Positions 24,219-53,588 of a stretch of 53,627 bases of DNA are shown here, one piece after another. The translations under genes and the position numbers were made by a program. The stretch covers positions 1-53,627 of IMG/VR virus record IMGVR_UViG_3300012984_000020. One strand, given 5' to 3'. The notes beneath the pieces are model-generated. The model was not told where the DNA came from. It ran no database searches and saw only the letters and a list, made by a program, of their open reading frames with translations. This DNA comes from a virus. The first letter of the stretch is position 1. Each line of letters opens with the position of its first letter.

Positions 24219-27200
24219 ATGCCCACCTATCACCTGACGGCGCCGAACGGTCGCACGTACCGGATGCAAGGCCCGCCAGGGCTGTCGCAGGACGACGTGA
24301 TCGATCACGTCCTGAAGCTGGACCCGGAAGCCGGCAAGGCCCCGCCAGCGCCCAAGACGGGCCTGGGTGCGGCGTTCCAGTCCGGCGCCGAGAACATGTG
24401 GTCGTCGGGCAAGGCAGCGGTCAAGGGTCTGTTCGGCGACACGCAGGAGGCTGCTGCCGAGGCGCTTGCTGCAGAAAAACTGCAGCAACAGAAGTATGAC
24501 CCCCAGATCGGGCTGGAGCGGCTGGGCAAGGTCTACGACGAGAAGGGCCTGCTGGCCGCCGGTTCCGAGTTGATCGGACAGGCCGGGCGCGGCATCGCCC
24601 AGTCGTTGCCCGAGATGGGCGGCATGGCCGCTGGCGCGCGGCTGGGTGCGATGGCAGGTAGCGCGATTGCTCCAGGCGTCGGCACGGTCATCGGTGGTAT
24701 CGGCGGCGGCATCCTGGGCGGCCTGCTTCCACAGACCGGCCGGAACCTCGCCACGCAGCAGGAGGCCACCCCCGGGCAGGTGAGCTACGGCAAGGCCGCG
24801 GCTGCCGGCACCGCCCAGGCCGCGCTGGAAGAAGTGGCACCGATGCTGCTCATGGGCAAACGTGTCGCCGGAAAGCTGTTCGGCGATGACATCGCGCAGG
24901 TGATCGGCAAGCTCGGTCCCGAGGCGGCGGAGAAGGTGGCCGCCCGGCGCCTGTCAACGACGGTCGCGCGCGGCGCGGCGGAGGGTGCTGCTGGCGAGGC
25001 CACCACGGAGGTGATGCAGCAGGCCCTGGAGCGGCTGCAGGCGGGCCAGCCCCTGCTGGACAGCGAGGCGCTGAAAGCCTACGGCGAGGCCGCCTACGGT
25101 GGCGCGATCGCTGGCGCACCGCTGAGCGGCGCCGGCCAAGCGTGGGATCGCGCTGGTGCGCAGCGGCAGGTGGCGGACACCGAGCAGGCCGCCCAGCAGG
25201 CCCAGGCCGCCCAGCAGGCCCAGGCCCAGACGGCGGCCGAGCAGGCAGCTGCGCAGGCCGAGGAAGAGCGCCGCGCGCGGCCGGAGTATGCCGCCAAGGT
25301 GGCCGAGGACTATGCCGCCTACGAGCAGCAGAAGAAGGCACTGCTGGCCCAGCGCAAGGCGCTGCTGGCCGAGAAGACCGACGCCGGCTATGCCGCGGCG
25401 AAGGATGTCGAGGCGGCCCTGCGCGAGCACGTCGCACAAGGCAAGCCGCTGCTGGCCGAGTTCAATGCCGCGTTCACGACGCCAGAAGCGCGGGCAGCAG
25501 CGCTTGCGGGTCCGGCGGCTGTGGTCGCGCCGCCCGGTGCACCGGAGGGCATGCTGTTCCAGCCCGAGGGCAACCCGCAGCAGGGCCAGCGCATTCAGGA
25601 ACTGCAGGCGCAGATCGCCGAGTACGAAGACACGTTGCCGAAGGAAGAGGCGCTGGCGCAGGAGATGATGCGCCAGGACAAGCTCGACCAAGCGCTTGCG
25701 GCCGGCGAGACTTTGGCTGCTCGCGCGAAAGCACATAAGGAAGCTCAGAAGGAGCTGTACAAGCTCGCGCCTGCGCTGAAGGCGGATGCCAAGACGGCTG
25801 CCGCCGCCGCTGCCACCGCTGATGCCGAGGCCCAGACACTGCAGGCGCTCAACACGGAGCAGACGCAGGGGCAGATCACGGCGCTGACATCGCAGATAGC
25901 CAAGCTGATGAAGAGCGCCAACACCAAGCAGTTGCCGAAGGTAGCGGAGGCGAAGGCCGAGATCGAGCGCCTGCAGGGGCTGCTGGACGCGCAGGCACAG
26001 CAGCGGAACGCCGGCTATGACGAGAACCTGTTCCAGCTGGATGAGCGCCTGCAGGGTGAAGAGAAGCAGCTGGAGGGCGAGTGGAACGCCGCTGCTGATG
26101 CGCACGATCGCGGCAAGCGCGTGCAGGCCGTCGCGGATCGCCGGCTGGAGAAGCACGCCGACGCCTTCTCGGCCGATCTGGCTGCCGAAGACGAGGCGGC
26201 CGATCGCGCCGCGGCGGCCCAGGCCACCGAGCAGGGCTTCGCCAACATGTTCGCCACTAAGGAGCGCTCGGGCATGCTCGACGCGCTGGCGAAGGACACC
26301 AGCGAAGACGCCCGGCTGTTGCGTGCGATGGGCAAGCCGCTGCGTGGCGAAGGTGGTGCGATCGTCGAGTCGCTGGCGAACCTGCCGGCCGACAAGCGCC
26401 CCGATGCTGCACGGGCGCTGCAGTCCCACGCCAAGGAGGTCGTGAAGGCGTTGCACGCCGATCTGGCCCAGGCCCGCAAGACGGGCGACACCGAGCGTGC
26501 GCAGGGCTTCATCGAGGCGATCCGCTCAGTGGCGGCGATGCAGAAGGAGACGCAGGGCCGCGCGCACTACATGGCCGACTTCTACAACCTCACGGCGCCG
26601 TTGGTGAAGGGTGTCGTGCGCGGTGCGCAAGATGTGGTCGGCACGCCGGCACCCGAGGCCGGCACCGAGTCAGCACGTCGGGCCAGCGCCGGCCACCACT
26701 ATCAGGTGATGCAGGACTTGGAGAAGCGCTATGCCGGCGTGAAGGGCCTGCGCGAGACCACAGCGATGCAGCAGGTGGCTGATGAAGGCACGGAGGTGCA
26801 CGAGCCGCTGCCCGAGGAAGGACTGAGCAAGGAGACGATGCCTGTGGCGCCGGCTGCCGAGCAAGGCAATGTCGCGCGCGCCGACGAGCAGGGCCAGGGC
26901 CGGCTGTTCATCCCCGAGGCAGGGCCAGCACCGACGGCGGACACACCGCGGCAACTGCTGCGCCAGCGCGTCGATAAGCTGCTGGCAATGCCGGGGCTGA
27001 CCGGACACGCCCGCGTGCGTCTGAAGCAGGCCGCCGACATCCTGGGCAGCGCCGCGCCACACGCAGCGGACATCGCGCAACCCCGTCCGAAGGGCATCCA
27101 CAAGGATGTGGTGATGGCCCCGAAGACCGTGTCGAAGGCCCAGCTGGCGCAGATCACGAACATGGTCGAGCAGGCCGAGAAGGGCGGCGGGCGCCCCGGC

Positions 27201-30200
27201 ACCGTGCCGACAGGCGCGAAGGCCAGCGCTGCGGCCGGCAGGACGCTGCCCGAGACCGAGCGCGTGCCGACGCGGCGCCTGGAACTGGAGACGGTCGCGG
27301 AAGAGACTGCGCATCCCGACGCGCAGCCGGACCTGTTCCACACGATGCACGCCGGCCGCACTACGCCAGCTAATTTCCAACGAGCACTAGACACCGGCGC
27401 GCTGCCGTCCACGCGGGCCACGACGCCCGCTCAACGGAAGAAGCACGCCGCAGCTGCAGCCAAGGCCCCGCTACCCGTGCCGCAGCCGCTCGCGGCGTCC
27501 AGCAACGTCGAGGAAACCAAGGCGCGGATCATGGAGTTGCAGCAGCAGATCAATAAGGTCCGCGCAGACAACCCCGTCGTCAAGGGCGAGAGCCTGAGTG
27601 TGCAGGCCGAGCAACGCAAGCAACAGACGGCGGCGTTGAAGCCGTGGCTGGAAGCTATGCGTGCTGCCGTGGCGCACCGGCGCACGTTGCTGAAGAAGGT
27701 CGGTCGTCCGAACGCCGAGGTCACAGCACCTGTGCCGACGGATGCCCAGCGCCGCGCGGCCGCGGCCGGCACCACGGCCGAGGAATACACCAAGCGCACC
27801 GGCGACAAGGTGACGCGTGTGAGCGCACGCCAGGACGAGGGCGGCATCGAGTTGACCTCGGACGCTGTGGACGAGGTCATCAGCACCGCCAAGGCCGTGC
27901 CCGGCGTCACGAACGCGGACGTGCGGGACACGTTCGACAAGGTCAGCAAGTACCGCACGGCGCGGGCCTTCTCGTCTGAGGGCAACAAGATCGTGAAGGC
28001 ACTGGAGGTGCTGGCCGACGACATGCGCGCGTTCCGGGGCAAGAACCCCGGCGGCATCATGCCGCGCAAGCACCGCGCAAGCTACAACTCGGCCGTGTTG
28101 GAGAAGGCCCACCTCGCTGCGCAGCTGAAGGAGACGCCGAGCGCCGACGCGCGCGCCACGGTGATGGCACGCCAGGATGTCGTGGACAAGCACCTCGCCT
28201 ACCTCAACCGGCAACGCACGGCGCTGGCCGCTGATCCGCAGTACCGCGAGATGCAGCGCAAGGCCGCGCTGCTGCAGCTGAAGAGCGACCTGATCGTGCA
28301 GCAGAAGGCTGCCGTCGAGGCCGCCGAGGGCTACCAGCCGGCGACGAAAGAGATCGTCAAGGCGGGTGTCGAGGAAGGTGTGCTGGAGCCGGTCGAGCCG
28401 GCCACCAAGATGGGCACCGACGAGCCAGCCACGCGCATGGCCGTCGCCAAGGCAGCCAAGCCACAGAAGACGGGCTTCCAGAGCAAGGGCGCACCGCCGA
28501 CGGCGGCCCAGGTGAAGGCGGCCGAGCGCATCACTGGCACCCGGCGGGCCACGGACGACGTGCTGCGCCAAGCAAAGGCCGAGAAGGGCGCCAAAGCAAA
28601 AGCGCTGGCTGCCGAGGCCGTTGACTGGGAAGGCGAGGGCGGCCGCGCGGCGGAGCCCCTGAACTCTGCCGAGGCCGCCAAGCTGACGCCAGCGGAGGCG
28701 CTGAAGCTGATGCAGGAGGTCGCACGTCGGCGTGCTTCGGTGCTCAACAAGGAAGAACGCGAGCACGCCCCTGCGCCGGTCACTTGGCTGACCTTGGAAG
28801 AGGCGCAGCATCTGGCTGACCGCGATCTCCAGGGCCTGCTGGATAAGCTATCAAAGACGGCCAGTTCGCCGATCGCGCGTGCACTGGCGACGAAGCTGAA
28901 GGCGCTGACCAAGGATACGAAGCTGCGCATGTACAAGGCGCTGACTGGTCCGAAGGGCGCGCAAGGCACCTTCGACACCGAGACGAACGAGATCGCTATC
29001 TACCTGTCGGGCGCATCGCAGGAGACGGTGATGCACGAGGCGGTGCACGCGGCCACGGTGCATGCGCTGCGCGCTTACGAGAAGGACTTGACGCCCGACC
29101 AGCGCAACGCACGCAAGGAGTTGAAGCGGCTGTTCGCGCTGTTGGAGAAAGACAAGGCGTTCGAGAACGAGTACGGCATGGAGGACATCTTCGAGTTCGC
29201 TTCGGAGGTCATGACCAACGAGAGCCTGCGCGCCAAGATCGATGCCAAGAAGCCGAACCTATGGCGCCGGCTGGTCAATGCGTTCATGCAGCTGTGGGGT
29301 GCGGACCCGAAGCAGGCGGCGAGCGCCGACGCGATGGCGCTGGTGGAGCGCCTGTTCCAGAACTCACGCCCGCTGACGGAGGCGGAGATCGCCGAGATCG
29401 CAGCGCTGCGTGCTGAGCATGAAGCGAAGGAAGGTCGCGGCAAGACGGTCCTGGCTGCTGCCGCCCGGCCAGCTTCATCGTCCGCCACCCCCGCACTCGA
29501 CGAGTTCAGCCGCTCGCTGACGGCCAAGCCGCGCGCTGGTGGCGTGCGTGCCTTCATGAAGGACTCCAACGCCGGCCTCGCTGCCGAGTACGCCGCGGTG
29601 GACATGCGCGCGCCGCTGATGAAGGCGCTGTCCAAGGGCGACAAGGCGCAGTACATGCAGGGCCAGTACTACATCCGCAAGGCCGACGCGCGCATGGCCC
29701 AGGTCGGCGCCTCGCTGCTCAATGGCACGCTGCAGCTGAAGAAGGACGCCAAGGGCAACCACATCGTCGAGGCCACCGGCAAGACCTCGGGCCGGGACGT
29801 GTTCGACGCGATCGACGCACTGCCCGGTGCTACGCCCGAGGCCAAGTACGCGCTGGCGCAGTCGTATCTGGTGGCGCAGCGCGCGGCCAACAAGGGCTGG
29901 GACAAGCTGGGCTGGGAGACGAGCGCTGCGAATCAGGCGCTGGGCGAGCGGGCGCTGAAAGAGGCCGACGCCAACCCGGCGCTCAAGAAGCAGCTGGAGA
30001 ACGTGCGCAAGGTCTACAACGACTACAACCAGGGCATGATCCAGTTCCTCGCGGACACCGGCGCGATCTCCAAGAAGCTGGCGAGCGATCTCACCAAGGA
30101 CGGCGACTATGTGCCGTTCTATCGCGTCGGCGAGTCCGGCGCCGCCGAGCTTGTGATGGGCGAGAACACGCACATCCGTGTCGGGGACGTGCGCAAGCAG

Positions 30201-32066
30201 CCCTACCTGCAGGAACTCAAGGGCGACGACACCAAGCTGCTGCCGCTGAGCGAAGCGATCATGCGCAACACCATGCTGCTGACCGACATGGGCCTGCGCA
30301 ATCTGGCGACCAAGAACATCGCCTACTCGCTGCAGGACATGAGCAAGGCCGCCGGCGTCAACAAGATTCGCCCAGGCAAGGCGCCAGCCGGGCCTGATGT
30401 CGTCGCATTCAAGCAGGACGGCGAGGACTACTGGATGCGCGTCACCTCGGCCAACACGCCGTTCGAGGGCATCCCGTCTGAACTGCTGGTGCAGTCGCTG
30501 GAGGGTTCGCACAGCATGCTGACTGGCATGGGCAAGGTGGCTGGTGCGTTCAGCAATCTGCTGCGCTCTGGCGTCACCCGCACGCCGGCCTACCTGCTGC
30601 GCCAACTGATCCGCGATCCGATGTCGGCGTCGTTCACGGCCGGGATCAACCGCGGGCCGGTCATGGCGATGCTGGAGTCGATGCGCGAGTTCGTCTCGCA
30701 GATGCGCGGCACGAGCGCCACGGGCAATGCGTTGCTGCGCAAGGGCGTGACCCAGAGCGGCATCTTCAACGGCACGGCCGAGGACATGGAGAAGTTCGCG
30801 CTGCAGATGGCAGGCGGCGAGCAGCCGGCCTACAAGAAGCTCTTCGCCGCGGCCGACCGCGCTGCGATGGCTGCGGACGCAGCTACGCGTGCACAAGTCT
30901 ACGACGATACGCTGCGCAAGACCGGGTCCGAGATGGAGGCTGAACTGGCCGCCATCGAGATGATGAACTTCACCAAGCGCGGCGCGAGCCCGACGGTGCA
31001 GTACGCCACGCGGATGATCCCGTTCATGAACGCGCAGATTCAGTCGCTCAATGTGCTCGCCAAGGCGTTCCGTGGTAACGCCACGATGGAGGAGAAGCTG
31101 CAGATCAAGCAGAAGTTCTTCAAGAACGCAATGGGGCTTGCCGCCTTCTCGCTGGTCTACGCCGCGGGTATGGAGGACGACGAGGACTACAAGAACGCCT
31201 CGGCGTTCGAGCGCATGAGCAACTTCTTTCTGCCGACGCCGGGCGGGACCATCAAGGTGCCGATCCCGTACGAGGTGGGCTTCTTGTTCAAAGTGCTGCC
31301 CGAGATGATGATGCGCGGGCTCCAGGGCAAGCTCGACACGACCGACTGGGAGGCGTTCCGCGGCAGCCTGCTGGGCATGGTCCCCGGCGGCACGAGCATG
31401 GGCATGCCACAGATGATCGCGCCGGTCCTGCAGTCGGTGTCCAACCGGGACGCGTTCGGCAACAAGATCGAGACCGAGGAGCAGCTGAAGCTCGCCAAGG
31501 GTGAGCGCCGCAGCGACACCACGTCCGAGGCGGCTGTCGCGCTGTCCGGCCTGATGAGCGCCGTGCTGCCCGAGTCGATGCAGCTAAGCGGGCCGAAGAT
31601 CGAGCATCTGGTGCGCGGCTACGTCGGCGGCTTCCCGGTGGCCGTCGCCGGCATGGTCGATCAGTTCCTGCCCGACAGCAACAAGCCCGAGCGCATGGCT
31701 TCCCAGAACCCGATCTACGGCGCATTCGTTCCCAAGAACGTCGGCACCGGGCCGGTCTCCAGCGGCTACGCGGCGCTGAACAGCATCGAGCAGGTGAACG
31801 CCACGCTGGCGCATCTGCGCGAGGAGGAGCCCGAGCGGGCCGAGGCGTACGCCCAGGAGCACGTCGGCGAGATCAGCGCCAAGGGCGCGGCCGACGCCTT
31901 CAAGCAGCAGCTGAAGGGGCTCAAGGAGCAGCAGAAAGGCATCATGCAGGACAAGGCGATGCTGGCGGCCGACAAGCGCAAGGCTATCGACGATCTCGCC
32001 CGGCTGCGCAACACGCTGGCGCGGGACTTCACGGAGAACGTGAGGGCGTTGGCTACTTCACCGTGA
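24219..32066 (+). CDS. Giant polyvalent-type protein with HExxH site and LPD38-like region
   Basis: A 2615-residue protein, the last gene of the late operon. The N-terminus (YHLTAPNGRTYRMQGPPGLS) is a small domain common to giant phage proteins. Residues ~125-175 form a glycine-zipper hydrophobic stretch; ~310-680 are Ala/Gln/Glu coiled coil. A zinc-metallopeptidase-like site is seen as H1606-E1607-A-V-H1610, with E1659-F-A-S-E1663-VMTNE downstream as candidate third ligand. Residues ~1850-2450 resemble the large-polyvalent-protein-associated domain LPD38 (TRTPAYLLRQLIRDPMSASF). Probably injected with the DNA, acting on the host envelope or defence proteins (inference). Confidence 0.75.
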   Translation: MPTYHLTAPNGRTYRMQGPPGLSQDDVIDHVLKLDPEAGKAPPAPKTGLGAAFQSGAENMWSSGKAAVKGLFGDTQEAAAEALAAEKLQQQKYDPQIGLERLGKVYDEKGLLAAGSELIGQAGRGIAQSLPEMGGMAAGARLGAMAGSAIAPGVGTVIGGIGGGILGGLLPQTGRNLATQQEATPGQVSYGKAAAAGTAQAALEEVAPMLLMGKRVAGKLFGDDIAQVIGKLGPEAAEKVAARRLSTTVARGAAEGAAGEATTEVMQQALERLQAGQPLLDSEALKAYGEAAYGGAIAGAPLSGAGQAWDRAGAQRQVADTEQAAQQAQAAQQAQAQTAAEQAAAQAEEERRARPEYAAKVAEDYAAYEQQKKALLAQRKALLAEKTDAGYAAAKDVEAALREHVAQGKPLLAEFNAAFTTPEARAAALAGPAAVVAPPGAPEGMLFQPEGNPQQGQRIQELQAQIAEYEDTLPKEEALAQEMMRQDKLDQALAAGETLAARAKAHKEAQKELYKLAPALKADAKTAAAAAATADAEAQTLQALNTEQTQGQITALTSQIAKLMKSANTKQLPKVAEAKAEIERLQGLLDAQAQQRNAGYDENLFQLDERLQGEEKQLEGEWNAAADAHDRGKRVQAVADRRLEKHADAFSADLAAEDEAADRAAAAQATEQGFANMFATKERSGMLDALAKDTSEDARLLRAMGKPLRGEGGAIVESLANLPADKRPDAARALQSHAKEVVKALHADLAQARKTGDTERAQGFIEAIRSVAAMQKETQGRAHYMADFYNLTAPLVKGVVRGAQDVVGTPAPEAGTESARRASAGHHYQVMQDLEKRYAGVKGLRETTAMQQVADEGTEVHEPLPEEGLSKETMPVAPAAEQGNVARADEQGQGRLFIPEAGPAPTADTPRQLLRQRVDKLLAMPGLTGHARVRLKQAADILGSAAPHAADIAQPRPKGIHKDVVMAPKTVSKAQLAQITNMVEQAEKGGGRPGTVPTGAKASAAAGRTLPETERVPTRRLELETVAEETAHPDAQPDLFHTMHAGRTTPANFQRALDTGALPSTRATTPAQRKKHAAAAAKAPLPVPQPLAASSNVEETKARIMELQQQINKVRADNPVVKGESLSVQAEQRKQQTAALKPWLEAMRAAVAHRRTLLKKVGRPNAEVTAPVPTDAQRRAAAAGTTAEEYTKRTGDKVTRVSARQDEGGIELTSDAVDEVISTAKAVPGVTNADVRDTFDKVSKYRTARAFSSEGNKIVKALEVLADDMRAFRGKNPGGIMPRKHRASYNSAVLEKAHLAAQLKETPSADARATVMARQDVVDKHLAYLNRQRTALAADPQYREMQRKAALLQLKSDLIVQQKAAVEAAEGYQPATKEIVKAGVEEGVLEPVEPATKMGTDEPATRMAVAKAAKPQKTGFQSKGAPPTAAQVKAAERITGTRRATDDVLRQAKAEKGAKAKALAAEAVDWEGEGGRAAEPLNSAEAAKLTPAEALKLMQEVARRRASVLNKEEREHAPAPVTWLTLEEAQHLADRDLQGLLDKLSKTASSPIARALATKLKALTKDTKLRMYKALTGPKGAQGTFDTETNEIAIYLSGASQETVMHEAVHAATVHALRAYEKDLTPDQRNARKELKRLFALLEKDKAFENEYGMEDIFEFASEVMTNESLRAKIDAKKPNLWRRLVNAFMQLWGADPKQAASADAMALVERLFQNSRPLTEAEIAEIAALRAEHEAKEGRGKTVLAAAARPASSSATPALDEFSRSLTAKPRAGGVRAFMKDSNAGLAAEYAAVDMRAPLMKALSKGDKAQYMQGQYYIRKADARMAQVGASLLNGTLQLKKDAKGNHIVEATGKTSGRDVFDAIDALPGATPEAKYALAQSYLVAQRAANKGWDKLGWETSAANQALGERALKEADANPALKKQLENVRKVYNDYNQGMIQFLADTGAISKKLASDLTKDGDYVPFYRVGESGAAELVMGENTHIRVGDVRKQPYLQELKGDDTKLLPLSEAIMRNTMLLTDMGLRNLATKNIAYSLQDMSKAAGVNKIRPGKAPAGPDVVAFKQDGEDYWMRVTSANTPFEGIPSELLVQSLEGSHSMLTGMGKVAGAFSNLLRSGVTRTPAYLLRQLIRDPMSASFTAGINRGPVMAMLESMREFVSQMRGTSATGNALLRKGVTQSGIFNGTAEDMEKFALQMAGGEQPAYKKLFAAADRAAMAADAATRAQVYDDTLRKTGSEMEAELAAIEMMNFTKRGASPTVQYATRMIPFMNAQIQSLNVLAKAFRGNATMEEKLQIKQKFFKNAMGLAAFSLVYAAGMEDDEDYKNASAFERMSNFFLPTPGGTIKVPIPYEVGFLFKVLPEMMMRGLQGKLDTTDWEAFRGSLLGMVPGGTSMGMPQMIAPVLQSVSNRDAFGNKIETEEQLKLAKGERRSDTTSEAAVALSGLMSAVLPESMQLSGPKIEHLVRGYVGGFPVAVAGMVDQFLPDSNKPERMASQNPIYGAFVPKNVGTGPVSSGYAALNSIEQVNATLAHLREEEPERAEAYAQEHVGEISAKGAADAFKQQLKGLKEQQKGIMQDKAMLAADKRKAIDDLARLRNTLARDFTENVRALATSP

Positions 32067-38943: not shown

Positions 38944-39147
38944 TCAGTCCTTGAACGCGTCGATGCGGTCGCCGAGGATGCAGCTGTAGTGCAGCATATG
39001 GATGGCCTGATGGTGCAGGCGCACCTGCTCAGCGCTATCGGTAGCGGCGAAGACTGGCGAGCCGATGAACGCGTTCAGCGCTTCACGCTTGACATCGAGA
39101 TCGGCCTTCTCTTCGACGACACGCTGCTGGTAGGGCATGAGGGTCAT
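38944..39147 (-). CDS. Small conserved phage protein (crAss001_48-related type)
   Basis: A 67-residue helical protein starting on an ATGA overlap with PEP-CTERM protein 2. The pattern PYQQRVVEEKADLDVKREAL, a short FIGSPVF and a closing helix HYSCILGDRIDAF matches small phage proteins annotated as crAss001_48-related. Function unknown. It is the last gene before the terminator at 38836-38880. Confidence 0.65.
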   Translation of the reverse strand: MTLMPYQQRVVEEKADLDVKREALNAFIGSPVFAATDSAEQVRLHHQAIHMLHYSCILGDRIDAFKD

Positions 39148-39740
39148 ACGAGCTTCCGACGAGTTGCTGCCAGCGCGAACAGGCCCAGGCCAGCAAGCGC
39201 AAGAGATGCGGGCTCGGGCACTTGCGTGACGATGAACGGGTCAGGGCTGCCGGGCGGGAGAAACGTCATGTTCTGCGACAGCAGCGAGCCTTGCTTGTCA
39301 CCCGCGTCGTTTAGGAAGCGCAGCTTCAGGTGCGGCGTGTGCAGCGCGTCCAGCGCCAGCGAGCCGCCGGTCAGGTCGATCGTGAATGTCATGTCATTGG
39401 TCAACGCGATCGGAGGCGCTGCGTCGAAGCAGACGCCACCGCTGTCGCCACCGCTGCAGCCATTGGCATTCAGTTCGTTGGGCGAGTACACCCAGTTGCC
39501 CGGGGTCAGCGTACCGCCGGTCGGATCGAAGCCCAGGTCTTTGAAGCCCAGGTTGTCCAGCTTCGTGGCCGGACCCCAGTCGCCCGTGGCGTCCAGCGCG
39601 CCCTTGATGCGCAGCGTGAAGCTGTTGCTGTCGGTCTGGTTGAAACCAAACAGCACGCCTTGTTCGGCGTAGATGAACGTGGGCGCGGCCTGTGCGCTGA
39701 ACGCCAGCGCCGCGAGTACGGTGAGAAACACTTTCTTCAT
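39144..39740 (-). CDS. PEP-CTERM surface protein 2
   Basis: A 198-residue exported protein. Signal peptide: MKKVFLTVLAALAFSAQA with likely cleavage after AQA. The body is beta-rich (SFTLRIKGALDATGDWG, MTFTIDLTGGSLALDAL), with a Cys pair near residues 94 and 103. The C-terminus is a full PEP-CTERM signal: VPEP, a hydrophobic helix, then TRRK. Such signals are processed by exosortases, membrane proteases of polysaccharide-producing Gram-negatives; none is encoded here, so the host must supply it. It lies in one operon with the Acb2-like gene and overlaps the next gene, so it is not a stray insertion. Confidence 0.9.
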   Translation of the reverse strand: MKKVFLTVLAALAFSAQAAPTFIYAEQGVLFGFNQTDSNSFTLRIKGALDATGDWGPATKLDNLGFKDLGFDPTGGTLTPGNWVYSPNELNANGCSGGDSGGVCFDAAPPIALTNDMTFTIDLTGGSLALDALHTPHLKLRFLNDAGDKQGSLLSQNMTFLPPGSPDPFIVTQVPEPASLALAGLGLFALAATRRKLV

Positions 39741-39906: not shown

Positions 39907-40284
39907 TCAGAAGTTTTGGGGTTGAGCGATGCCGCGGACGACTTCCATGAAGCCCTGCTGCAGATGCGTGGCGCCGATGGACACCCAGCGCTGGTCGAGA
40001 GGCGGAGGCAGCAGGCCGCTTGCGCCGGGGCCGGGTGGCGTCCCGTGGGGGTGCAGGCGCAGCTTGGCGATGAACGCGCCGACCTGTTCGCCCAGCGCCT
40101 TGGCCTCGTTGATGAGCGCAAGCTCCTCGGGGCTCAGGTCGCGGTACGTGATGAGCACGCGCTTGGCTGCGGACTCGTAGACTTCTTTGGCGTCGGTGCG
40201 CAGGGCCGGGTCGAGGTTCGCCATGACGACCTCTTCACCGGCACGAATCTGTGCCGCTTGGATTTGTTGGGTCAGGTCGCTCAT
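39907..40284 (-). CDS. Acb2/Tad1-like cyclic-nucleotide sponge
   Basis: A 125-residue protein. The C-terminal part matches the Acb2/Tad1 hairpin pattern: RDLSPEELALINEAKALGEQ (48-67) and, after a Gly/Pro insert, QRWVSIGATHLQQGFM (98-113) then VVRGIAQP. Acb2 proteins bind cyclic di- and trinucleotide signals and so block CBASS and Thoeris-type immunity. The N-terminal ~45 residues are an additional helical part, and the ~20-residue Gly/Pro-rich loop between helices is longer than I expect. Starts on an ATGA overlap with the upstream gene. Family call is from pattern memory; ligand binding is inferred. Confidence 0.75.
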   Translation of the reverse strand: MSDLTQQIQAAQIRAGEEVVMANLDPALRTDAKEVYESAAKRVLITYRDLSPEELALINEAKALGEQVGAFIAKLRLHPHGTPPGPGASGLLPPPLDQRWVSIGATHLQQGFMEVVRGIAQPQNF

Positions 40285-41638: not shown

Positions 41639-42253
41639 TCAGCCGTCGATGGCAGCCAGGATCAGTTCAGCCGTCGAAGCGAACGCATCGACTTCGGCAA
41701 CCGTCTTGGCGTCAACGATATCGAACTTGGCGCCCTTCAGGTTGTCGTCCAAGTCCTGCAGGAACTTGGTGGCGTACTTGTCGTCGCCGACCTGCACGAA
41801 CAGCACCGTGCACGCGTCATCGCTGACTTGGCTGTTGGCTTGGTTCAGGATGACCTTCTTCACGGCTTCTGCGTCGTCCGGCACGCCGTCGGTGTACACG
41901 ACGATGAAGTCCTTCTTGGCGCTCTTGCCGGCCATGCTGAACGCCTTGGTCAGCGCCTCGGCCAGCGGCGTGCCGCCGCGCGGTGCCAAGTCCTTGAAGA
42001 TATCCAGCGCGTTGGCTTCGGTGACGTTCTCCCAGGCAGCGATGTTGCCGCCCAGCTGAACCATGCCGATGCCGTCGCTGTCGATCTGCGAGATGTCGCG
42101 GATCAGCGTGCGTAGGGACTCCTGCATGGCAGTCCAGCGGGTCGGGGAGGTGGTGCCGGCCTTGTTGGGCTCAGCCATCGAGCCGCTGGTGTCAACGACG
42201 GCGATGAAGTCGAACTCGGAAAGGCGCGCGATTGCGTTTGCGTCGAGGGTCAT
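41639..42253 (-). CDS. Von Willebrand factor A domain protein
   Basis: A 204-residue stand-alone VWA domain. The metal-ion-dependent adhesion site is complete: D21-T-S-G-S (VVDTSGSMAE), a Thr in RGGTPLAEAL near residue 95 and an Asp in VVYTDGVPDD. VWA domains bind partners through the metal; TerY-type and phage VWA proteins often act with an ATPase. Here it leads an operon of microproteins, a ribbon-helix-helix protein and the Acb2-like gene, behind a promoter at 42301-42328. ATG 42253 follows AGGAACTGCA. Confidence 0.85.
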   Translation of the reverse strand: MTLDANAIARLSEFDFIAVVDTSGSMAEPNKAGTTSPTRWTAMQESLRTLIRDISQIDSDGIGMVQLGGNIAAWENVTEANALDIFKDLAPRGGTPLAEALTKAFSMAGKSAKKDFIVVYTDGVPDDAEAVKKVILNQANSQVSDDACTVLFVQVGDDKYATKFLQDLDDNLKGAKFDIVDAKTVAEVDAFASTAELILAAIDG

Positions 42254-42300
42254 TGCAGTTCCTATCAGGTGGTTGATCCCGGCTCCGTGCCGGTGATCGC

Positions 42301-42328
42301 AGTATACACACGACTTGTGTATACACAA
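42301..42328 (-). promoter_or_regulatory. Promoter with overlapping palindromic operator
   Basis: Read on the - strand: TTGTGT, 16 bases, TATACT. The -35 side lies in a perfect 14-bp palindrome TTGTGTATACACAA (42315-42328), and GTATACACA (42302-42310) forms a second inverted pair with TGTGTATAC. The half-site TGTGTA also occurs in the 37218 and 50406 elements. The VWA start lies about 48 bases from the -10. Confidence 0.65.
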
Positions 42329-42336
42329 CAAATTTT

Positions 42337-42426
42337 TTAATCGCCGTCCAACAGCCACTTCCAGATCACCACAATGATGACGATCGTGACGAGCGTCAGC
42401 ACCCAGTCGATTTGTGCTTCTGTCAT
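42337..42426 (-). CDS. 29-residue single-pass membrane microprotein
   Basis: ATG 42426 overlaps the stop of the HNH-like gene (ATGA). The peptide is a short acidic start (MTEAQIDW), a membrane helix (VLTLVTIVIIVVIWKWLL) and DGD. Coupling to the upstream stop is the main support; no separate ribosome site is clear. Confidence 0.45.
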   Translation of the reverse strand: MTEAQIDWVLTLVTIVIIVVIWKWLLDGD

Positions 42427-42695
42427 TTGACGTTCGGAACTTTGTACGACTTCTTGCCCTTGCGCCATGCCCGGTTCTCGGCCGGCGACTGCACGCCCAG
42501 GTTGCTCGGCGCGTTACCGCCGCCGTTGTCCAGTGCTGTCTTGTGGATCACGTCCTTGCCGTCGCCGATGGGCGAGGCGCCCGACTTTATCGCAGCCCGC
42601 TGCGCGGCCTTGCGCTTGGTCTGCGCCTTGACCTGCGCCGGGGTGTCGTTGTAGGCGTGTTGGTACGCCAGCTTGGCCTTGGTGGATTTAGGCAT
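42423..42695 (-). CDS. Small HNH-nuclease-like protein
   Basis: A 90-residue basic protein of a type common in phages. The core DGKDVIHKTALDNGGGNAPSN resembles the HNH pattern (Asp-x-His, Gly-Gly-x-Asn), followed by ENRAWRKGKKSYKV. The first metal-binding Cys pairs of classical HNH proteins are absent, so it may be a minimal or degenerate nuclease or a DNA-binding protein. Confidence 0.55.
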   Translation of the reverse strand: MPKSTKAKLAYQHAYNDTPAQVKAQTKRKAAQRAAIKSGASPIGDGKDVIHKTALDNGGGNAPSNLGVQSPAENRAWRKGKKSYKVPNVK

Positions 42696-42698
42696 GGT

Positions 42699-43058
42699 TC
42701 ACTCCTTCCCGTAGTCCGGGTGCTTGCGGTTCATGTGGGCAGCGAGTTGCTTGAAGCTGCGCTTGCAGCAGGGGCACACGCCGTGCGAGATGCGCTTGCG
42801 CAAGCGCTCCGTCTCGGCCTGCGCCGCGGTGGCTTGCTGGGCGAGGCGCGTCTTCTCGATCTCGGCCGCGCTGAGCGCCTTGCGCAGCTTGTCGGCCTCG
42901 CTCGCGCCGGGGAAGTTCTGCGTGTGTCCGCTCGGGCAGTAGAAGCTGCGGTGCGACTCGCGCAGCGAGCGCTCAAGCGCTTCGCTCAGCACGATCGGTG
43001 CGCCGCAGCTGCAGCAGTCGAGCAGGTTCAGTTTGAGGTTGATCTCGATGGTTTCCAT
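42699..43058 (-). CDS. Double zinc-finger protein
   Basis: A 119-residue protein starting at ATG 43058, sharing one base with the nuclease stop (TAATG). The N-terminus has CCSCGAPIVL and YCPSGHTQ, a likely first zinc site. A coiled coil (ALSAAEIEKTRLAQQATAAQ) links it to a C-terminal C2H2-like finger CPCCKRSFKQLAAHMNRKH. This organisation is common in small phage proteins next to nuclease genes; probably nucleic-acid binding. Confidence 0.7.
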   Translation of the reverse strand: METIEINLKLNLLDCCSCGAPIVLSEALERSLRESHRSFYCPSGHTQNFPGASEADKLRKALSAAEIEKTRLAQQATAAQAETERLRKRISHGVCPCCKRSFKQLAAHMNRKHPDYGKE

Positions 43059-43720
43059 TACCTGATCCCCTGGAATTCGCACGTCGTCACTTCGCAGTAC
43101 TTCTTGCACAACCCGTTCTGCTTGGGCGGCCAATGGTTGCTGGCGATCGACGCCTCGATGGCGCCAGAGCGCTCGCGCCAGCGCCACCACAACTGCTCGG
43201 CTTGGTGGCGCTTCACCTTGTGTTTCGCCACTGTGCCCTTGAGCACGAATAGTAAGCCGCCGGACACGCTCTGCACAGTCGGGAAATGCTGGAAGATCAT
43301 CAGCGCCATGAGCAGTAGCTGATCGGTGTCTGGGTACTTGTCGCCACCAGACTTGTAGTCGTAGCAGCGCGCCGTGGTGCGGTCGGGCGAGAGGATGATG
43401 AGGTCGGCCACGCCGCGCACCCAGCAGTCCTTGGCGAAGAAGTCACAGGGCGTGAGGTCTTCCTTCAGGCCCATCTTCCACTCGCACAGCTTGTCGCCCG
43501 GCATGGCCTTGAGCGAGTCCATGATCGGCTGCATGAACTTGAAGTCCTTGCCGAGCGGGGTGTTGTAGAGGATGAAGTGCTCGGCCTGCTTGTGCAGTTC
43601 CGTGCCGTACAGGTTCGAGGCGTTGTCCTGCTTGGGGAAGTGCTTGAGTATCTTGACCTCGTGGAACTTCCGGCGGCACGTCTCGTAGTCCTTGATGGTG
43701 GAATATGACCAAGTCAGCAT
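43058..43720 (-). CDS. Cas4/RecB-like PD-(D/E)xK nuclease with Cys cluster
   Basis: A 220-residue exonuclease candidate. RecB-family landmarks: an N-terminal SYSTIKDYETCRRKF, YGTELHKQAEHF (40s), catalytic Asp106 in RGVADLIIL, and D121-Y-K123 in CYDYKSG. Four Cys (C15 near the start; C205, C209 and C214 at the end) are placed as in Cas4/AddB proteins that carry a 4Fe-4S cluster. Phages use such nucleases in recombination or degradation of host DNA. ATG 43720 follows AAGGAGAAGAC; overlaps the upstream Cys-rich peptide. Confidence 0.82.
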   Translation of the reverse strand: MLTWSYSTIKDYETCRRKFHEVKILKHFPKQDNASNLYGTELHKQAEHFILYNTPLGKDFKFMQPIMDSLKAMPGDKLCEWKMGLKEDLTPCDFFAKDCWVRGVADLIILSPDRTTARCYDYKSGGDKYPDTDQLLLMALMIFQHFPTVQSVSGGLLFVLKGTVAKHKVKRHQAEQLWWRWRERSGAIEASIASNHWPPKQNGLCKKYCEVTTCEFQGIR

Positions 43721-43806
43721 GTCTTCTCCTTCTCTCGCTTCAGACAGACGTGGCACTTCTTGCCGCCGTTGCGCCAGCAGTAGCAGCGCATCTGGTATGC
43801 CTTCAT
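43714..43806 (-). CDS. 30-residue Cys-rich peptide upstream of the nuclease
   Basis: ATG 43806 has a strong GGAGG four bases upstream. The peptide contains CYC near residues 8-10 and CHVC near 18-21, which could form a small zinc knuckle (RCYCWRNGGKKCHVC). Its end overlaps the nuclease start by 7 bases. It begins 12 bases after the terminator T run. Confidence 0.6.
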   Translation of the reverse strand: MKAYQMRCYCWRNGGKKCHVCLKREKEKTC

Positions 43807-43817
43807 GATGCCTCCAT

Positions 43818-43845
43818 AAAAAAGCCCCCAGCCTACGCTGGGGGC
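43818..43845 (-). terminator. Rho-independent terminator after PEP-CTERM gene 1
   Basis: On the - strand GCCCCCAGC-GTAG-GCTGGGGGC is a perfect 9-bp stem followed by TTTTTT. It starts 19 bases after the PEP-CTERM gene stop and abuts the ribosome site of the next gene. Confidence 0.92.
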
Positions 43846-43864
43846 CATGCCATTCAGACGCGAT

Positions 43865-44476
43865 TTAAGCGGCCTTGCGGCGACGAACGACGCCGGCAGC
43901 CATCAGGCCCAGTCCGACCAGCGCCAACGACGCAGGCTCGGGCACATTGGACTCGTTCACCTGCAGGTTGCCGGTGTAGCTGGCCGGCTGGTTGCCAGCG
44001 AGGCCAGAGATCGTGCCGGTGATGCTGAAGGCGTACCGGCCGGCGGCCAGATCGGTGAAGTCGATCACCGTGGCGTAGGCCGGGTTGGTGAACCCGTCCG
44101 CAATCATGGCGCCGGGGGTCAGCGCCGAGCACAGACCGCCTACCGTCGGCCCGTTCGGCGCGCAATTGCTGCCCGTCACGCTGAACAGCTGCACATCGAA
44201 GTTCGAGATGTTTCCGATCGGCAGGAAGATCGCGTTGACGGACGCGGCGCCGGCTGGGTTGATGTCGAAGACCCACCAATTCGTGAAGGCACCATTGAAG
44301 CCGGTCGTAGCGTTTCCGAAGGTGCTGTTGTCGTCGGTGAGCGGGCTGTGGGTGCCGAGGTAGGTGCCCGGCTGGCCCTGCAGGTACGCGCAGTTGTTGC
44401 AGACCACACCGGCCGAGGCCGCGGCGGACATCGCCAGCATGGCAAGCGCGCCGAGGAAAGATTTGAGCTTGAGCAT
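43865..44476 (-). CDS. PEP-CTERM surface protein 1
   Basis: A 203-residue exported protein. Signal peptide: MLKLKSFLGALAMLAMSAAASA with cleavage likely after ASA. The mature protein starts near VVCNNC and has a beta-rich body with NGAFTNWWVFDI and YAFSITGTISGLAG. The C-terminus is a full PEP-CTERM signal: VPEPASLALVGLGL, a hydrophobic helix, then RRRKAA. ATG 44476 follows AGGAGTTCAC. With its own promoter-like box upstream and a strong terminator downstream it looks like an independent cargo gene. No exosortase is encoded in the window. Confidence 0.92.
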   Translation of the reverse strand: MLKLKSFLGALAMLAMSAAASAGVVCNNCAYLQGQPGTYLGTHSPLTDDNSTFGNATTGFNGAFTNWWVFDINPAGAASVNAIFLPIGNISNFDVQLFSVTGSNCAPNGPTVGGLCSALTPGAMIADGFTNPAYATVIDFTDLAAGRYAFSITGTISGLAGNQPASYTGNLQVNESNVPEPASLALVGLGLMAAGVVRRRKAA

Positions 44477-44518
44477 GTGAACTCCTAGGAGGTTGACGGG
44501 ACGGGGAAAACCCCCGCT

Positions 44519-44528
44519 GACTATACAA
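44519..44528 (-). promoter_or_regulatory. Possible promoter -10 of PEP-CTERM gene 1
   Basis: On the - strand TTGTATAGTC resembles TTGTATAATC of the 50406 element. It lies 43 bases before the start codon; no good -35 was found. A short GGGG-GTTTT-CCCC hairpin lies in the leader. Confidence 0.4.
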
Positions 44529-44592
44529 AGCAAGCATCTTGCCGCCGTTATGGATCAATGACTTGCGGAGGGTGGTGTAAAGAAATCCGACA

Positions 44593-45030
44593 TCAAAACG
44601 GCAGCGGGTCCAGCATCAGCGTGTCGCACCCGTCGCCGCAGTCGATGGCGAAGTGGCACGCAATCTCGACGGCAGTGACCGCGCTCTTGCCCAGGTACAT
44701 CGCTGCCTCGGCGAAGTCGCGCCCGCTGCCCCACGCGGCGCATTTGTTCTCGTAGATCATCGGGTAGGGCGCTGCGTCGTAGACGTGGATGCCCTTCTCG
44801 TTGATGACGATCAGCGTGGCCTTGTCCTCGCGCGCCTTGGCCGGGAACTTCTCCGGGTCAGCGCCGGCCTTATGCCACTCACGTATCTCGATGCCCACAT
44901 CCCACACGCCAGTGATGCCGTACAGCTGGTTGTTGTGCTTCTCGATCTTCGTGCAGGTGTGGCGCAAGCCGGCGCTGGTGACGCGCTTGTCGGCCGCCAG
45001 CACGCTGCCGTCCCAACAGATTACAGACAT
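44593..45030 (-). CDS. Proteasome-like Ntn-hydrolase
   Basis: A 145-residue protein with the beta-subunit/HslV pattern: SVICWDGSVLAADKRVTSAG at the start, KIEKHNNQLYGITGVWDVG, a late AWGSGRDFAEAAMYLG and CGDGCDTLML. After Met removal the first residue is Ser, where proteasome subunits have a Thr nucleophile. D14 and K28 are candidates for the conserved Asp and Lys. Related small phage proteins are known. It could be a self-assembling peptidase or amidase; the substrate is unknown. ATG 45030 follows GGGGGAGTAATC. Confidence 0.75.
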   Translation of the reverse strand: MSVICWDGSVLAADKRVTSAGLRHTCTKIEKHNNQLYGITGVWDVGIEIREWHKAGADPEKFPAKAREDKATLIVINEKGIHVYDAAPYPMIYENKCAAWGSGRDFAEAAMYLGKSAVTAVEIACHFAIDCGDGCDTLMLDPLPF

Positions 45031-50422: not shown

Positions 50423-51021
50423 ACAGGTTTCTTGAGGTCGCTGACCTCGTCGATGATGAGGACATCCGCCCGCTTGCCGGTCAGGGGCTTGCCGGGGATG
50501 GCCGACCCGCTGCCCTGGAAGCTGGACACGAGCGTGGCGCCAGCGGCATTCTGTCGCGTCTGCGTGGCGTTGGCGCCGGCCACGCGCCGCATGTTCAGCA
50601 TGTGCATGAACGCCTCGGCCGTGCGCCGCGCCTCGTCGATCACGACCGGGTCGGTCAGCACCGTGCCCTTCTCGACCGGCATGTGCGCGACGAACACCAG
50701 CCGGAACGACGCGGCCTGTCCGACCACTTGGTTGTAGCCCAGCTGCAGGATGTAGTGCGCGCCACCGAACAGGCTGCCGACGACGCGTGCCTCGTCCAGC
50801 GCTGGCCCTGTCCAGTTGCCCTCCAGCACCTTGGACGTGGCGACACGCACGGGGACAAGCGCCTCCAGTTTCGTGATGCTGTTCATCTGCAGCGCGCGCT
50901 GCTCGGGCGCTGGGGGTATCTGTTTCTCTCGATTGATTTTCATGATCTCTTGCTCAAATTTGCGGGTTAATGCCTTATCGACGCGTACAGCTGCGGCGAC
51001 GATGTCTTCGTCGTTAATCAC
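50416..51021 (-). CDS. Hypothetical protein in the MoxR/VWA cluster
   Basis: A 201-residue protein starting at GTG 51021 (GTGA overlap, GGAGA upstream). The N-terminus is helical (VRVDKALTRKFEQEIMKINR); the middle has FRLVFVAHMPVEKGTVLTD. It ends ADVLIIDEVSDLKKPVV, a Walker-B-like hydrophobic-DE motif, but no Walker A was found. Not recognised; its place between the VWA and DUF3150-like genes suggests it is a part of the same system. Confidence 0.6.
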   Translation of the reverse strand: MINDEDIVAAAVRVDKALTRKFEQEIMKINREKQIPPAPEQRALQMNSITKLEALVPVRVATSKVLEGNWTGPALDEARVVGSLFGGAHYILQLGYNQVVGQAASFRLVFVAHMPVEKGTVLTDPVVIDEARRTAEAFMHMLNMRRVAGANATQTRQNAAGATLVSSFQGSGSAIPGKPLTGKRADVLIIDEVSDLKKPVV

Positions 51022-52202
51022 AAGCTCTCCTTGGAGATGCGCAGCACCTTCCCCCGCGCCGGCTGGAACCGATACCCACCGACGACGCCCCACAGCAGCG
51101 GGCCGGACGGGCACTCGAACTTGTCCTCCACCATGCCGTCGGTCAGCATGATCGTGGCCTGCGGCTTCATCTGCTTCTCACGCATGTAGCGGGCCACGAC
51201 GGACACCGTGGTGCCCCCGCCACCCTTGGCCTGCAGCTTCTTGTCCATCTGCCCATAGTCGTTGGGCTTGAACACCTGCACGCCGGCCACCTTGGTGTCC
51301 CACCAAATCACTGTCACTGATAAGGGTTGGAGTTGCTCGCACACCCTGCCGATCTCGCCGAAGATGCGTGCGTAGTAGCGGCGCATGGACCCCGAGGTGT
51401 CACAGGCCACGACGAGATCACCGGCCGCCTCGCTGTAGTGCGACGGCAGCGCGATGTCTAGTGGTGCGAACAGCTTGTTGCGCGGGCACCAGCGCGAGAG
51501 TTCATCGCCCTCGATGTGCTCCTGCAGGAACTGCTGCATGGGGTCGCGCCAGTTCGTCTCGGTCGTCTCGAACCCGCCGAGCGATGCAGCGCCGGCGCCC
51601 TCCCCGCGCAGCCGGGCCGAGATGATCTCGCCCTGCACACGCGCGTCGTTGAGCATCGCCTCCTCGGCCTGCGCTGCCTCCGGGTCGCCTTCCCCTGCTT
51701 CGCGCTGCTCGTGCTTGTCCATCGGCTTCTTGGACTCGCCCGGCTGCTTGTTCTTGATGAGGTCGGCGAGGACTTCCAAACAACTCCAGTTCCTGTACCG
51801 CTCATCGATCAGCGGCGGGATGTCCGTCGGGCGCTGCACGAAGCCGCGGCCCTTGTCCATCTCCTCCACCATCAGGTTGACGACGTAGTCTGTCGCTTGG
51901 TTGGCCTCGTCGGGGTGCGCCTTGAACTCGGCGTTGTAGGCCGTGCAATGCTGGAGCAGCTTGTGGCACTGCTCGTGCGCCACGACGTAGCGCAGCTGCC
52001 CTCTGTTCAGGCCCTGCGTGATCCACGCCTCGTTGTAGGTGCAGTCCAGCCCGTTGGTCTTGGCCGTCGGCACGTCCATCCCAGCGATGTGCACGTTGCC
52101 CACCTGGGTGACAGCGCCGATGCGGCTGAACTCAGGGTCGCCCATCAGATCGAGGTGGACGACGGAGATGCGCTCGCGCGCGGTGAGTATGTCGTAGCTC
52201 AT
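51018..52202 (-). CDS. VWA-like metallopeptidase (DUF2201 type)
   Basis: A 394-residue protein. The N-terminal metallopeptidase-like domain has H76-E-Q-C-H80 in YVVAHEQCHKLLQH, with a downstream acidic helix YVVNLMVEEMDKG. A Glu/Ala-rich linker follows (about 165-200). The C-terminal VWA-like domain has the D268-T-S-G-S site (VVACDTSGSMRRYY), GGGGTTVSV and MLTDGMVED. This two-domain plan matches DUF2201 proteins, whose genes usually lie next to MoxR ATPases, as here. ATG 52202 overlaps the previous stop. Confidence 0.85.
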   Translation of the reverse strand: MSYDILTARERISVVHLDLMGDPEFSRIGAVTQVGNVHIAGMDVPTAKTNGLDCTYNEAWITQGLNRGQLRYVVAHEQCHKLLQHCTAYNAEFKAHPDEANQATDYVVNLMVEEMDKGRGFVQRPTDIPPLIDERYRNWSCLEVLADLIKNKQPGESKKPMDKHEQREAGEGDPEAAQAEEAMLNDARVQGEIISARLRGEGAGAASLGGFETTETNWRDPMQQFLQEHIEGDELSRWCPRNKLFAPLDIALPSHYSEAAGDLVVACDTSGSMRRYYARIFGEIGRVCEQLQPLSVTVIWWDTKVAGVQVFKPNDYGQMDKKLQAKGGGGTTVSVVARYMREKQMKPQATIMLTDGMVEDKFECPSGPLLWGVVGGYRFQPARGKVLRISKESL

Positions 52203-52450
52203 ACGTTTCTTCCCATGTATTCGAGGTTGAACCATTCGCCGTTATCGGTCAGCACCGAGTAGCCCGTGTTGTTGCCAAAGAGATAGCGCTTCTTCTCAGG
52301 CGCCCAGATGAACTTGCTGTGCAGCGGGCCTTCGCCCAGCCGCAGCAGCATGTTGTTCGCCTGCTTGCAAATCTCCTCGGCATGCGCGTCGTCGCGCGGC
52401 TTCTCCAGTTCGATCCAGACACGGTTTGGTGGGTGTTTCTTGCTTGTCAT
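52199..52450 (-). CDS. Small hypothetical protein in the MoxR/VWA cluster
   Basis: An 83-residue protein, ATG 52450 with AAGGAGAACGAC upstream. RVWIELEKPRDDAHAEEICK and KFIWAPEKKRYLFGNNTGYS suggest a compact alpha/beta fold. Stop overlaps the DUF2201-type start. Family not recognised. Confidence 0.6.
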   Translation of the reverse strand: MTSKKHPPNRVWIELEKPRDDAHAEEICKQANNMLLRLGEGPLHSKFIWAPEKKRYLFGNNTGYSVLTDNGEWFNLEYMGRNV

Positions 52451-52460
52451 GTCGTTCTCC

Positions 52461-53588
52461 TTAACGAGCGTTGAGGACGCGCAGGCTCTGGGTGAGCGTC
52501 TGCGTGAAGGTAGCCGAGCGTGCGAACACGCCCATCTTCTTGGAGTTGTTGGACACGTTCTTGGTGAACAGCAGCCGCGCCTCACCGGGCATGCGGTTCA
52601 TGTACTGCGAGACCGCCTCCGCTGCGCCCGAGTCCTGCGTCTTGGTGATGAGTTGGAAGGCCAGCATCACGCGAGCGCCGGCGTTGTCGGGGATGAACGT
52701 GCCCATCGGGTCGTGGCAGATCGCACCGAAGGAGGGGAGAGACCTACCAAATCTCACGTAGGCCATGAGCAAGGCCGTGAACGCCCGGCCGATGGTGCCG
52801 TTGATGGCCGCCGTCAGCGTGTGCTCGTCCAGGCTGCCCCCTCGGTTGAGGATGTCGCTGGTGGCGTGCAGCGAGCGCGGCGTGGCCCACTTGTCCTGCA
52901 CGGCGCGGGGGTTGAAGATGTACGGGTTGGTCCGCGCCAAGTCCTGCCCGGCCTTGGCCGCGCCAGCTTCGTAGTCCGTGAAGGACTCGAACACCTGCGG
53001 GTACTCGTTCACACAAGCGATGACGGCCGGATGCAGGCCGCGCGGGATGGCGAACTGATCGATCCATTCCTGCGCCGTCGGCTTGCGCAGCGTCACGTCG
53101 ATCAGACGGTCGCGCAGGTGGGCCTGCATGCTGTCGCCCAGGCCCTCGGCGCCCAGGTTCGTGCAGGCAAACACGATGCTGCCCACCGGCATGTGGTAGT
53201 CGCCGATGCGGTGCTCGTACAGGATGGGCGCCAGCGCGTCCTTGATGGACTGCTTGGCCTTCGCTACTTCATCCAGGCAGATGACGATCGGCTTGCTGCC
53301 GTCGATGCCCTTGCGGTTGCCGTTGTGCACACCGAAGCGCTCGTTGGGAAGCTCGCGCGACACGCCGGCCTCACGGTCGAGGTCGGGCACCCAGATGCTG
53401 CCATCGCTCAGCTGGGTGCAGTCCACCGGGTTCACGACGTGGTGGTCTTTGAAGGCGTCGTCCTCGGCCAGCGCGTACAGCATCGAGGTCTTGCCGATGC
53501 CGCTCTCGCCTTGGACGAGGATCGTTCTGTCCATGCCGACGGCTTTGATGAGGTCGAGGGTCTGGACGGAGTTGAGGGTCAGTTTCAT
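52461..53588 (-). CDS. MoxR-type AAA+ ATPase
   Basis: A 375-residue ATPase with Walker A GESGIGKT (27-34), Walker B IVICLDEV (D106, E107), a sensor-1 Asn in VFACTNLG and an arginine-finger region HLRDRLIDV. MoxR ATPases work with VWA proteins as chaperone-like pairs that load metals or remodel complexes; the VWA partner is two genes downstream. The start at 53588 lies close behind a terminator, with only a weak GAAAG ribosome site. Confidence 0.88.
   Translation of the reverse strand: MKLTLNSVQTLDLIKAVGMDRTILVQGESGIGKTSMLYALAEDDAFKDHHVVNPVDCTQLSDGSIWVPDLDREAGVSRELPNERFGVHNGNRKGIDGSKPIVICLDEVAKAKQSIKDALAPILYEHRIGDYHMPVGSIVFACTNLGAEGLGDSMQAHLRDRLIDVTLRKPTAQEWIDQFAIPRGLHPAVIACVNEYPQVFESFTDYEAGAAKAGQDLARTNPYIFNPRAVQDKWATPRSLHATSDILNRGGSLDEHTLTAAINGTIGRAFTALLMAYVRFGRSLPSFGAICHDPMGTFIPDNAGARVMLAFQLITKTQDSGAAEAVSQYMNRMPGEARLLFTKNVSNNSKKMGVFARSATFTQTLTQSLRVLNAR

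Follow-up and report, generated by a model that had tools for sequence, protein, structure and literature searches.

Why would a bacteriophage encode substrates of a protein-sorting pathway that belongs to Gram-negative bacteria? This question is raised by a viral record of 53,627 nt (IMG/VR IMGVR_UViG_3300012984_000020; "the window" denotes this whole stretch), which carries two genes for PEP-CTERM proteins, PEP1 and PEP2 (Table 1); no third PEP-CTERM gene was found in the window. Exosortase substrates of this kind are matrix components of many soil, water and activated-sludge bacteria, most of them without a known role, and PEP-CTERM proteins normally help to hold the matrix to the cell. The window itself is phage DNA. 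It encodes a Terminase_6C protein, a portal, a major head protein, SU10-type adaptors and a tail fibre, together with a family A DNA polymerase, a primase/helicase and a SNF2-type helicase. Phages of Pelagibacter, Roseobacter and Planktothrix are among those whose portals share 38-41% identity with its own. As no tyrosine integrase was found in the record, it is likely, if not proved, that the phage is lytic. The window also encodes a giant protein of 2615 aa (24219-32066) with an LPD38 domain near its C-terminus, and three of its proteins recall an AAA ATPase and VWA chaperone set: VWA_2 (41639-42256), a DUF2201 metallopeptidase/VWA-like protein (51018-52235) and a phage ATPase of phrog_1297 (52461-53588).

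PEP2 and its place in the phage genome

The PEP2 reading frame starts with ATG, 7 nt downstream of a strong Shine-Dalgarno sequence (AAGGAG). Its N-terminus (MKKVFLTVLAALAFSAQAA) has the basic start, hydrophobic core (Kyte-Doolittle peak 1.96) and AQA site of a signal peptide, and the interior reaches a hydropathy maximum of 1.07 over 15 residues, leaving no transmembrane segment between the signal peptide and the PEP-CTERM region. The two-cysteine body is followed by VPEPASLALAGLGLFALAATRRKLV, and the frame ends with ..TCGTATGACC... In profile searches the sorting signal scores 31.8 bits against PF07589 (cutoff 20.7, E 1.3e-7, residues 173-195 of 198) and 17.0 bits against TIGR02595 (cutoff 16). 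PEP1 scores 30.9 bits against PF07589, and 48.4 bits against the FxDxF PEP-CTERM family (NF038126), just under the cutoff of 50, which leaves it near that family and outside it. BLASTP aligns the two proteins over a 25-residue tail alone (16 of 25 identical), so the preliminary description was right that they share a signal, and the bodies are unrelated at BLASTP sensitivity.

PEP2 is located in a minus-strand accessory region transcribed from high to low coordinates, in the order Acb2 homolog, 49-aa small ORF, PEP2, crAss001_48-family gene. Acb2 proteins belong to the CBASS sponge family and sequester cyclic nucleotides. The homolog in the window falls within the Acb2/Tad1 hairpin-domain family (PF24729, 58.8 bits, cutoff 27; PDB 8h2j and 8ixz, E 1e-8), 8h2j being the Acb2 of Pseudomonas phage PaP2 (PMC11722364). 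The gene overlapped by PEP2 belongs, by the searches made, to a family other than Acb2. Both the ATGA overlap and the position after an Acb2-like gene, as first described, are borne out, with the small ORF lying between Acb2 and PEP2.

Table 1. Features of the accessory region of the window.
Feature	Position	Strand	Remarks
crAss001_48-family gene	38944..39147	-	PF21825; ATGA overlap with the end of PEP2
PEP2, PEP-CTERM protein, 198 aa	39144..39740	-	signal peptide at about 1-19; beta-rich body with Cys95/Cys104; VPEPASLAL, hydrophobic helix and RRK tail
PEP-CTERM sorting signal of PEP2	39156..39224	-	PF07589
Small ORF, 49 aa	39750..39899	-	hydrophobic N-terminus, very basic C-terminus; in the segment absent, with PEP2, from L005
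Acb2 homolog	39907..40284	-	PF24729; PDB 8h2j/8ixz; N-terminal extension of about 45 aa
Von Willebrand A domain (VWA) protein	41639..42256	-	sole other window gene present in the PEP1-bearing phage L004
Intrinsic terminator	43823..43846	-	directly downstream of PEP1
PEP1, PEP-CTERM protein, 203 aa	43865..44476	-	near FxDxF family
Candidate sigma-54 (-24/-12) site	44529..44544	-	CGGCAAGATGCTTGC, 8/10; 68 nt upstream of PEP1
TTTACA	44576..44581	-	105 nt upstream of PEP1; 3' end of PEP-CTERM activator motif 1 (Haft 2006)

Cellular relatives and the empty site

A genome scan finds a homolog of PEP2 in Rubrivivax pictus with 44% identity over residues 1-196. Across the bacterial family of R. pictus, PEP2 has matches in 8 of 301 genomes (best 55% over the matched part), and PEP1 has distant matches in 23 of the 301. 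PEP2 and its cellular homologs share the body motifs QGV.F, D.DTF.L, ATGDW, GC...C, PHLK and G.LLSQ, and both cysteines are invariant; by alignment, the body of PEP2 thus belongs to a cellular family of the Burkholderiales, at 44-55% identity. No close homolog was found in other viruses. The R. pictus genome encodes two exosortases and has 70 PEP-CTERM matches, host genomes having 48-70 each. Neither the window record nor 19 other viral records contain an exosortase, and PEP-CTERM is present in 19 of these 20; processing, if any, would therefore need the enzyme of the host. That the exosortase pathway is used is what we infer, assuming an exosortase in the host, whichever bacterium that may be.

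The nearest relative found (L005/L130) is a 17 kb record whose helicase is 97% and polymerase 89-90% identical to those of the window. In L005 the end of the Acb2 gene (TTCTGAGGCCCGTATGACC) directly adjoins the beginning of the crAss001_48 gene, giving an exact empty site for PEP2, where the window has ...TTCTGAGGCGCGCATGGG, the small ORF, PEP2 and then GCTCGTATGACC. The PEP1 region differs as well, and no PEP-CTERM match was obtained anywhere in the L005 record. Because L005 carries neither gene and Acb2 abuts crAss001_48 there, PEP1 and PEP2 are both, on this comparison, optional cargo, each gained or lost as a unit, and the description of PEP2 as stably integrated does not hold. In another viral locus, L040, the Acb2 and crAss001_48 genes are non-adjacent, so loss in L005 versus gain in the window is not polarised. 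An HslV-like Ntn-hydrolase gene (phrog_1040, 44593-45030) that adjoins PEP1 is also missing from L005. Acb2 and the crAss001_48 protein (window 39907-40284 and 38944-39147, L005 9157-9666) are 63 and 72% identical between the two phages, far more diverged than the adjoining helicase, which suggests fast turnover of this island.

Cellular homologs of the PEP2 body might also be met if host DNA had been mis-joined into a viral contig. However, the segment is flanked by phage genes (Acb2 and crAss001_48 form the junctions, and there are also helicase and DNA polymerase), the empty site in the near relative matches, GC and GC3 match those of the phage, and PEP1 is found again in an independent phage; such an artefact is extremely improbable.

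Recurrence, selection and promoters

A DNA pattern for VPEP-A-[S-like]-LAL (VPEPASLAL-type) was run over 2.9 million viral contigs, with the same pattern reversed as control. It occurs in 110 viral stretches, versus 20 for the control, and in 90 of the 110 it ends a reading frame, 22-33 residues before the stop codon. The motif-bearing frames are spread over many unrelated body families. The largest comprises 45 loci, or 25 non-redundant clusters once near-identical ones are collapsed, and its neighbours include genes for terminase, portal, major head protein and DNA methyltransferase; IMG/VR contigs may contain host flanks, and single cases of viral PEP-CTERM therefore need care. Members of this family include L009, L021, L040, L073, L084, L093 and L100 (motif ...VGTSIGSFTSSVSGTFSA-VPEPA...). 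L040 and L078 each have a tandem of genes for two different PEP-CTERM proteins; Acb2 and crAss001_48 genes are close by, and a terminase-like gene follows downstream. L016 encodes three such proteins. No special association of PEP-CTERM with Acb2 genes is claimed, the two being found together, among motif-bearing loci, only in the window and in L040/L078 (one further lineage). Neither PEP2 nor either of two other viral PEP-CTERM families found a homolog among cultured phages; a 25-residue tail query gave no match there, in a test weakened by low-complexity filtering, and a PEP1 query gave one insignificant match. Plasmids gave no match.

The unrelated bodies that share a signal in the window, in L040/L078 and in L016 look as if the signal outweighed the body. 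This would fit a decoy, in which phage substrates flood the host exosortase and keep it from processing the PEP-CTERM surface proteins of the host, which would strip away matrix or receptors. Such a decoy is quite improbable: the bodies are conserved (PEP1 at 70% identity between phages, and the cysteines of the PEP2 family invariant), and the 48-70 PEP-CTERM matches of a host genome would be hard to out-compete.

The evidence on selection differs between the two genes. The phage L004 is otherwise unrelated to the window and has PEP1 and the VWA gene alone in common with it. Because PEP1 is kept in this unrelated phage at 70% identity with a dN/dS of 0.10, the comparison places it under purifying selection in phages that differ in GC (65% and 50% in the two gene copies). 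The VWA proteins are 72% identical; the two genes are adjacent in L004 (4328-5674) and a few genes apart in the window (41639-44476), and could possibly be a travelling pair. For PEP2, the only homolog available, a distant cellular one (L116), gives a dN/dS of 0.5 at high divergence, which is weak evidence of constraint and not decisive. This value, the absence of both genes from the nearest relative and the cellular rather than viral nature of the close PEP2 homologs are what would be expected of passive cargo, that is, of PEP-CTERM genes that recombination brought in from hosts and that the phage tolerates without gaining from them. Against this stand the low dN/dS of PEP1, the neat fit of PEP2 into its operon (Shine-Dalgarno sequence and ATGA coupling) and the recurrence of PEP-CTERM genes in many viral contigs, and passive carriage is rather unlikely. 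The preliminary description had argued for selected use of the host exosortase pathway. Two bodies with one signal, the exosortase-free record, the recurrence in L040/L078 and L016 and the purifying selection on PEP1 all speak for that reading; use of the pathway itself stays conditional. Related phages lacking the C-terminal signal, which it had regarded as counter-evidence, are found only in the sense that L005 lacks the whole gene; L004, the one other phage with PEP1, retains the signal.

Most proteobacterial PEP-CTERM genes lie behind a sigma-54 site, upstream of which is a motif with TTTACA at its end; the spacer averages 62.8 nt (range 32-92; PMC1569441). The R. pictus homolog of PEP2 has a perfect site (TGGCAC-N5-TTGC, 10/10) at -73, and several other cellular PEP-CTERM genes have sites of 9-10/10 at -43 to -73. 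In five cellular genes with sites of 8-10/10, TTTACA is present too, at a spacing of about 62-71 nt. The candidate site of PEP1, 8/10 at -68, is of a kind expected about 0.02 times per 60-nt zone, and its TTTACA at -105 leaves a spacer of 31 nt, just under the published minimum of 32. With these two elements and its own terminator, PEP1 resembles a self-contained cassette (43823-44581). Sites of 9-10/10 occur in the zone of 6 of 74 viral PEP-CTERM genes, whereas 0.48% of zones drawn at random from the contigs of these genes have one (binomial P 2e-6, an optimistic value, as the genes are not all independent and the random zones are mostly coding). PEP1 may be one of few phage genes under host RpoN control. 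The region upstream of PEP2 has a best sigma-54 score of 5/10 and so lacks the site that typifies most, though not all, members of the proteobacterial PEP-CTERM regulon (sigma-54/PrsR), and PEP2 has neither a promoter nor a terminator of its own. Because PEP2 overlaps the next phage gene by ATGA and lacks the sigma-54 site of its R. pictus homolog, it probably rides the phage operon, under phage control. We read PEP1 as a cassette still wired to the matrix programme of the host, and PEP2 as rewired to that of the phage. More broadly, and tentatively, phages of several lineages may carry a toolkit of exosortase substrates that remodels the surface of infected cells, in two forms: autonomous cassettes that retain a sigma-54 promoter from the host, and copies rewired into the counter-defence operons of phages. 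PEP2 would be an example of the latter.

Proposed role and known systems

Taken jointly, and with moderate confidence, the observations suggest that PEP2 is an optional cargo, derived from Burkholderiales and held in a phage counter-defence operon, which is processed by the host exosortase and alters the surface of the infected cell to the benefit of the phage. The sequences themselves show the signal architecture, a body from a cellular family, the place in the operon, an empty site in a relative, a record free of exosortase genes and the recurrence in other phages; cleavage, surface location, timing and benefit of PEP2 are proposed. A gene of bacterial origin would have been placed in the phage's own, probably early, counter-defence operon. 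The signal peptide would take PEP2 across the inner membrane by Sec export, the C-terminal helix would anchor it there and host exosortase would cut at the PEP motif, and the mature beta-rich domain would reach the host surface or the exopolysaccharide matrix. A surface role is supported by the tripartite signal, the full-length body homology to Burkholderiales PEP-CTERM proteins and the Acb2 neighbour, and its experimental anchor is the PepA protein of Aquincola described below. The activity of PEP2 at the surface is a guess, because its model, built from 3 sequences, has a low pLDDT (52) and no useful match to a solved fold: Foldseek with the PEP2 and PEP1 models (pLDDT 37 for PEP1) gave nothing under E 0.001, only weak generic beta-sandwich matches, and the PEP2 family matched no solved structure by sequence either.

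The surface change during infection would most likely keep competitors from infecting the same cell (superinfection exclusion), or else act through altered aggregation. Competitor exclusion is favoured because PEP2 sits with counter-defence genes and phage morons for envelope proteins do that. What counts against this role is that temperate phages are the best-known source of exclusion proteins, and no integrase was found in the window. Should the protein tie exopolysaccharide to infected cells, flocs might trap progeny beside new hosts. In Aquincola tertiaricarbonis, PepA keeps polysaccharide on the cell and drives flocculation; when it is overexpressed, polysaccharide passes from the soluble to the bound fraction and flocs form again (PMC9850573). 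This benefit by aggregation is nevertheless improbable, since flocs may shield hosts from phage as well and PEP2 matches the PepA profile in its tail alone (NF033554, 31.9 bits, cutoff 80, residues 169-196). The same score rules out PEP2 as a member of that curated flocculation family.

If phages do recruit exosortase substrates, their genomes would point to the PEP-CTERM proteins that matter in infection, and a Gram-negative protein-sorting pathway would be added to the list of pathways already known to be borrowed by phages. A surface protein that a phage encodes among counter-defence genes would also be directly testable for processing, matrix and phage resistance.

Among known systems, PEP2 resembles the PEP-CTERM/exosortase (EpsH) system of Gram-negatives (Haft 2006, PMC1569441) in its signal peptide, PEP motif, hydrophobic helix and basic tail, and its body family occurs in exosortase-encoding Burkholderiales. 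PEP2 differs in lying on an exosortase-free phage record, and in being part of a phage operon where the genes of that system stand singly behind sigma-54 promoters of their own. PepA is likewise a PEP-CTERM surface protein, from a related Burkholderiales lineage, and is sigma-54-controlled, as apparently is the R. pictus homolog of PEP2 and perhaps PEP1; it is a host gene, not a phage one, and has no family-level body homology to PEP2 (PMC9850573). The likeness to the Acb2 cyclic-nucleotide sponges lies in the neighbour of PEP2, not in PEP2, and the window copy of Acb2 differs by its N-terminal extension. The phage morons for superinfection exclusion, HK97 gp15 and the TP-J34 lipoprotein (cited in PMC4737114), are, like PEP2, small optional phage genes for envelope-targeted proteins; they use lipid or plain membrane anchors, whereas PEP2 has an exosortase signal and a putative exclusion role. 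In the accessible portions of the open-access literature on PEP-CTERM/exosortase and phages, prophages or auxiliary metabolic genes, no report of a phage-encoded PEP-CTERM protein was found. The PEP-CTERM protein class and the phage habit of carrying surface proteins are both already known, and what is new is their combination.
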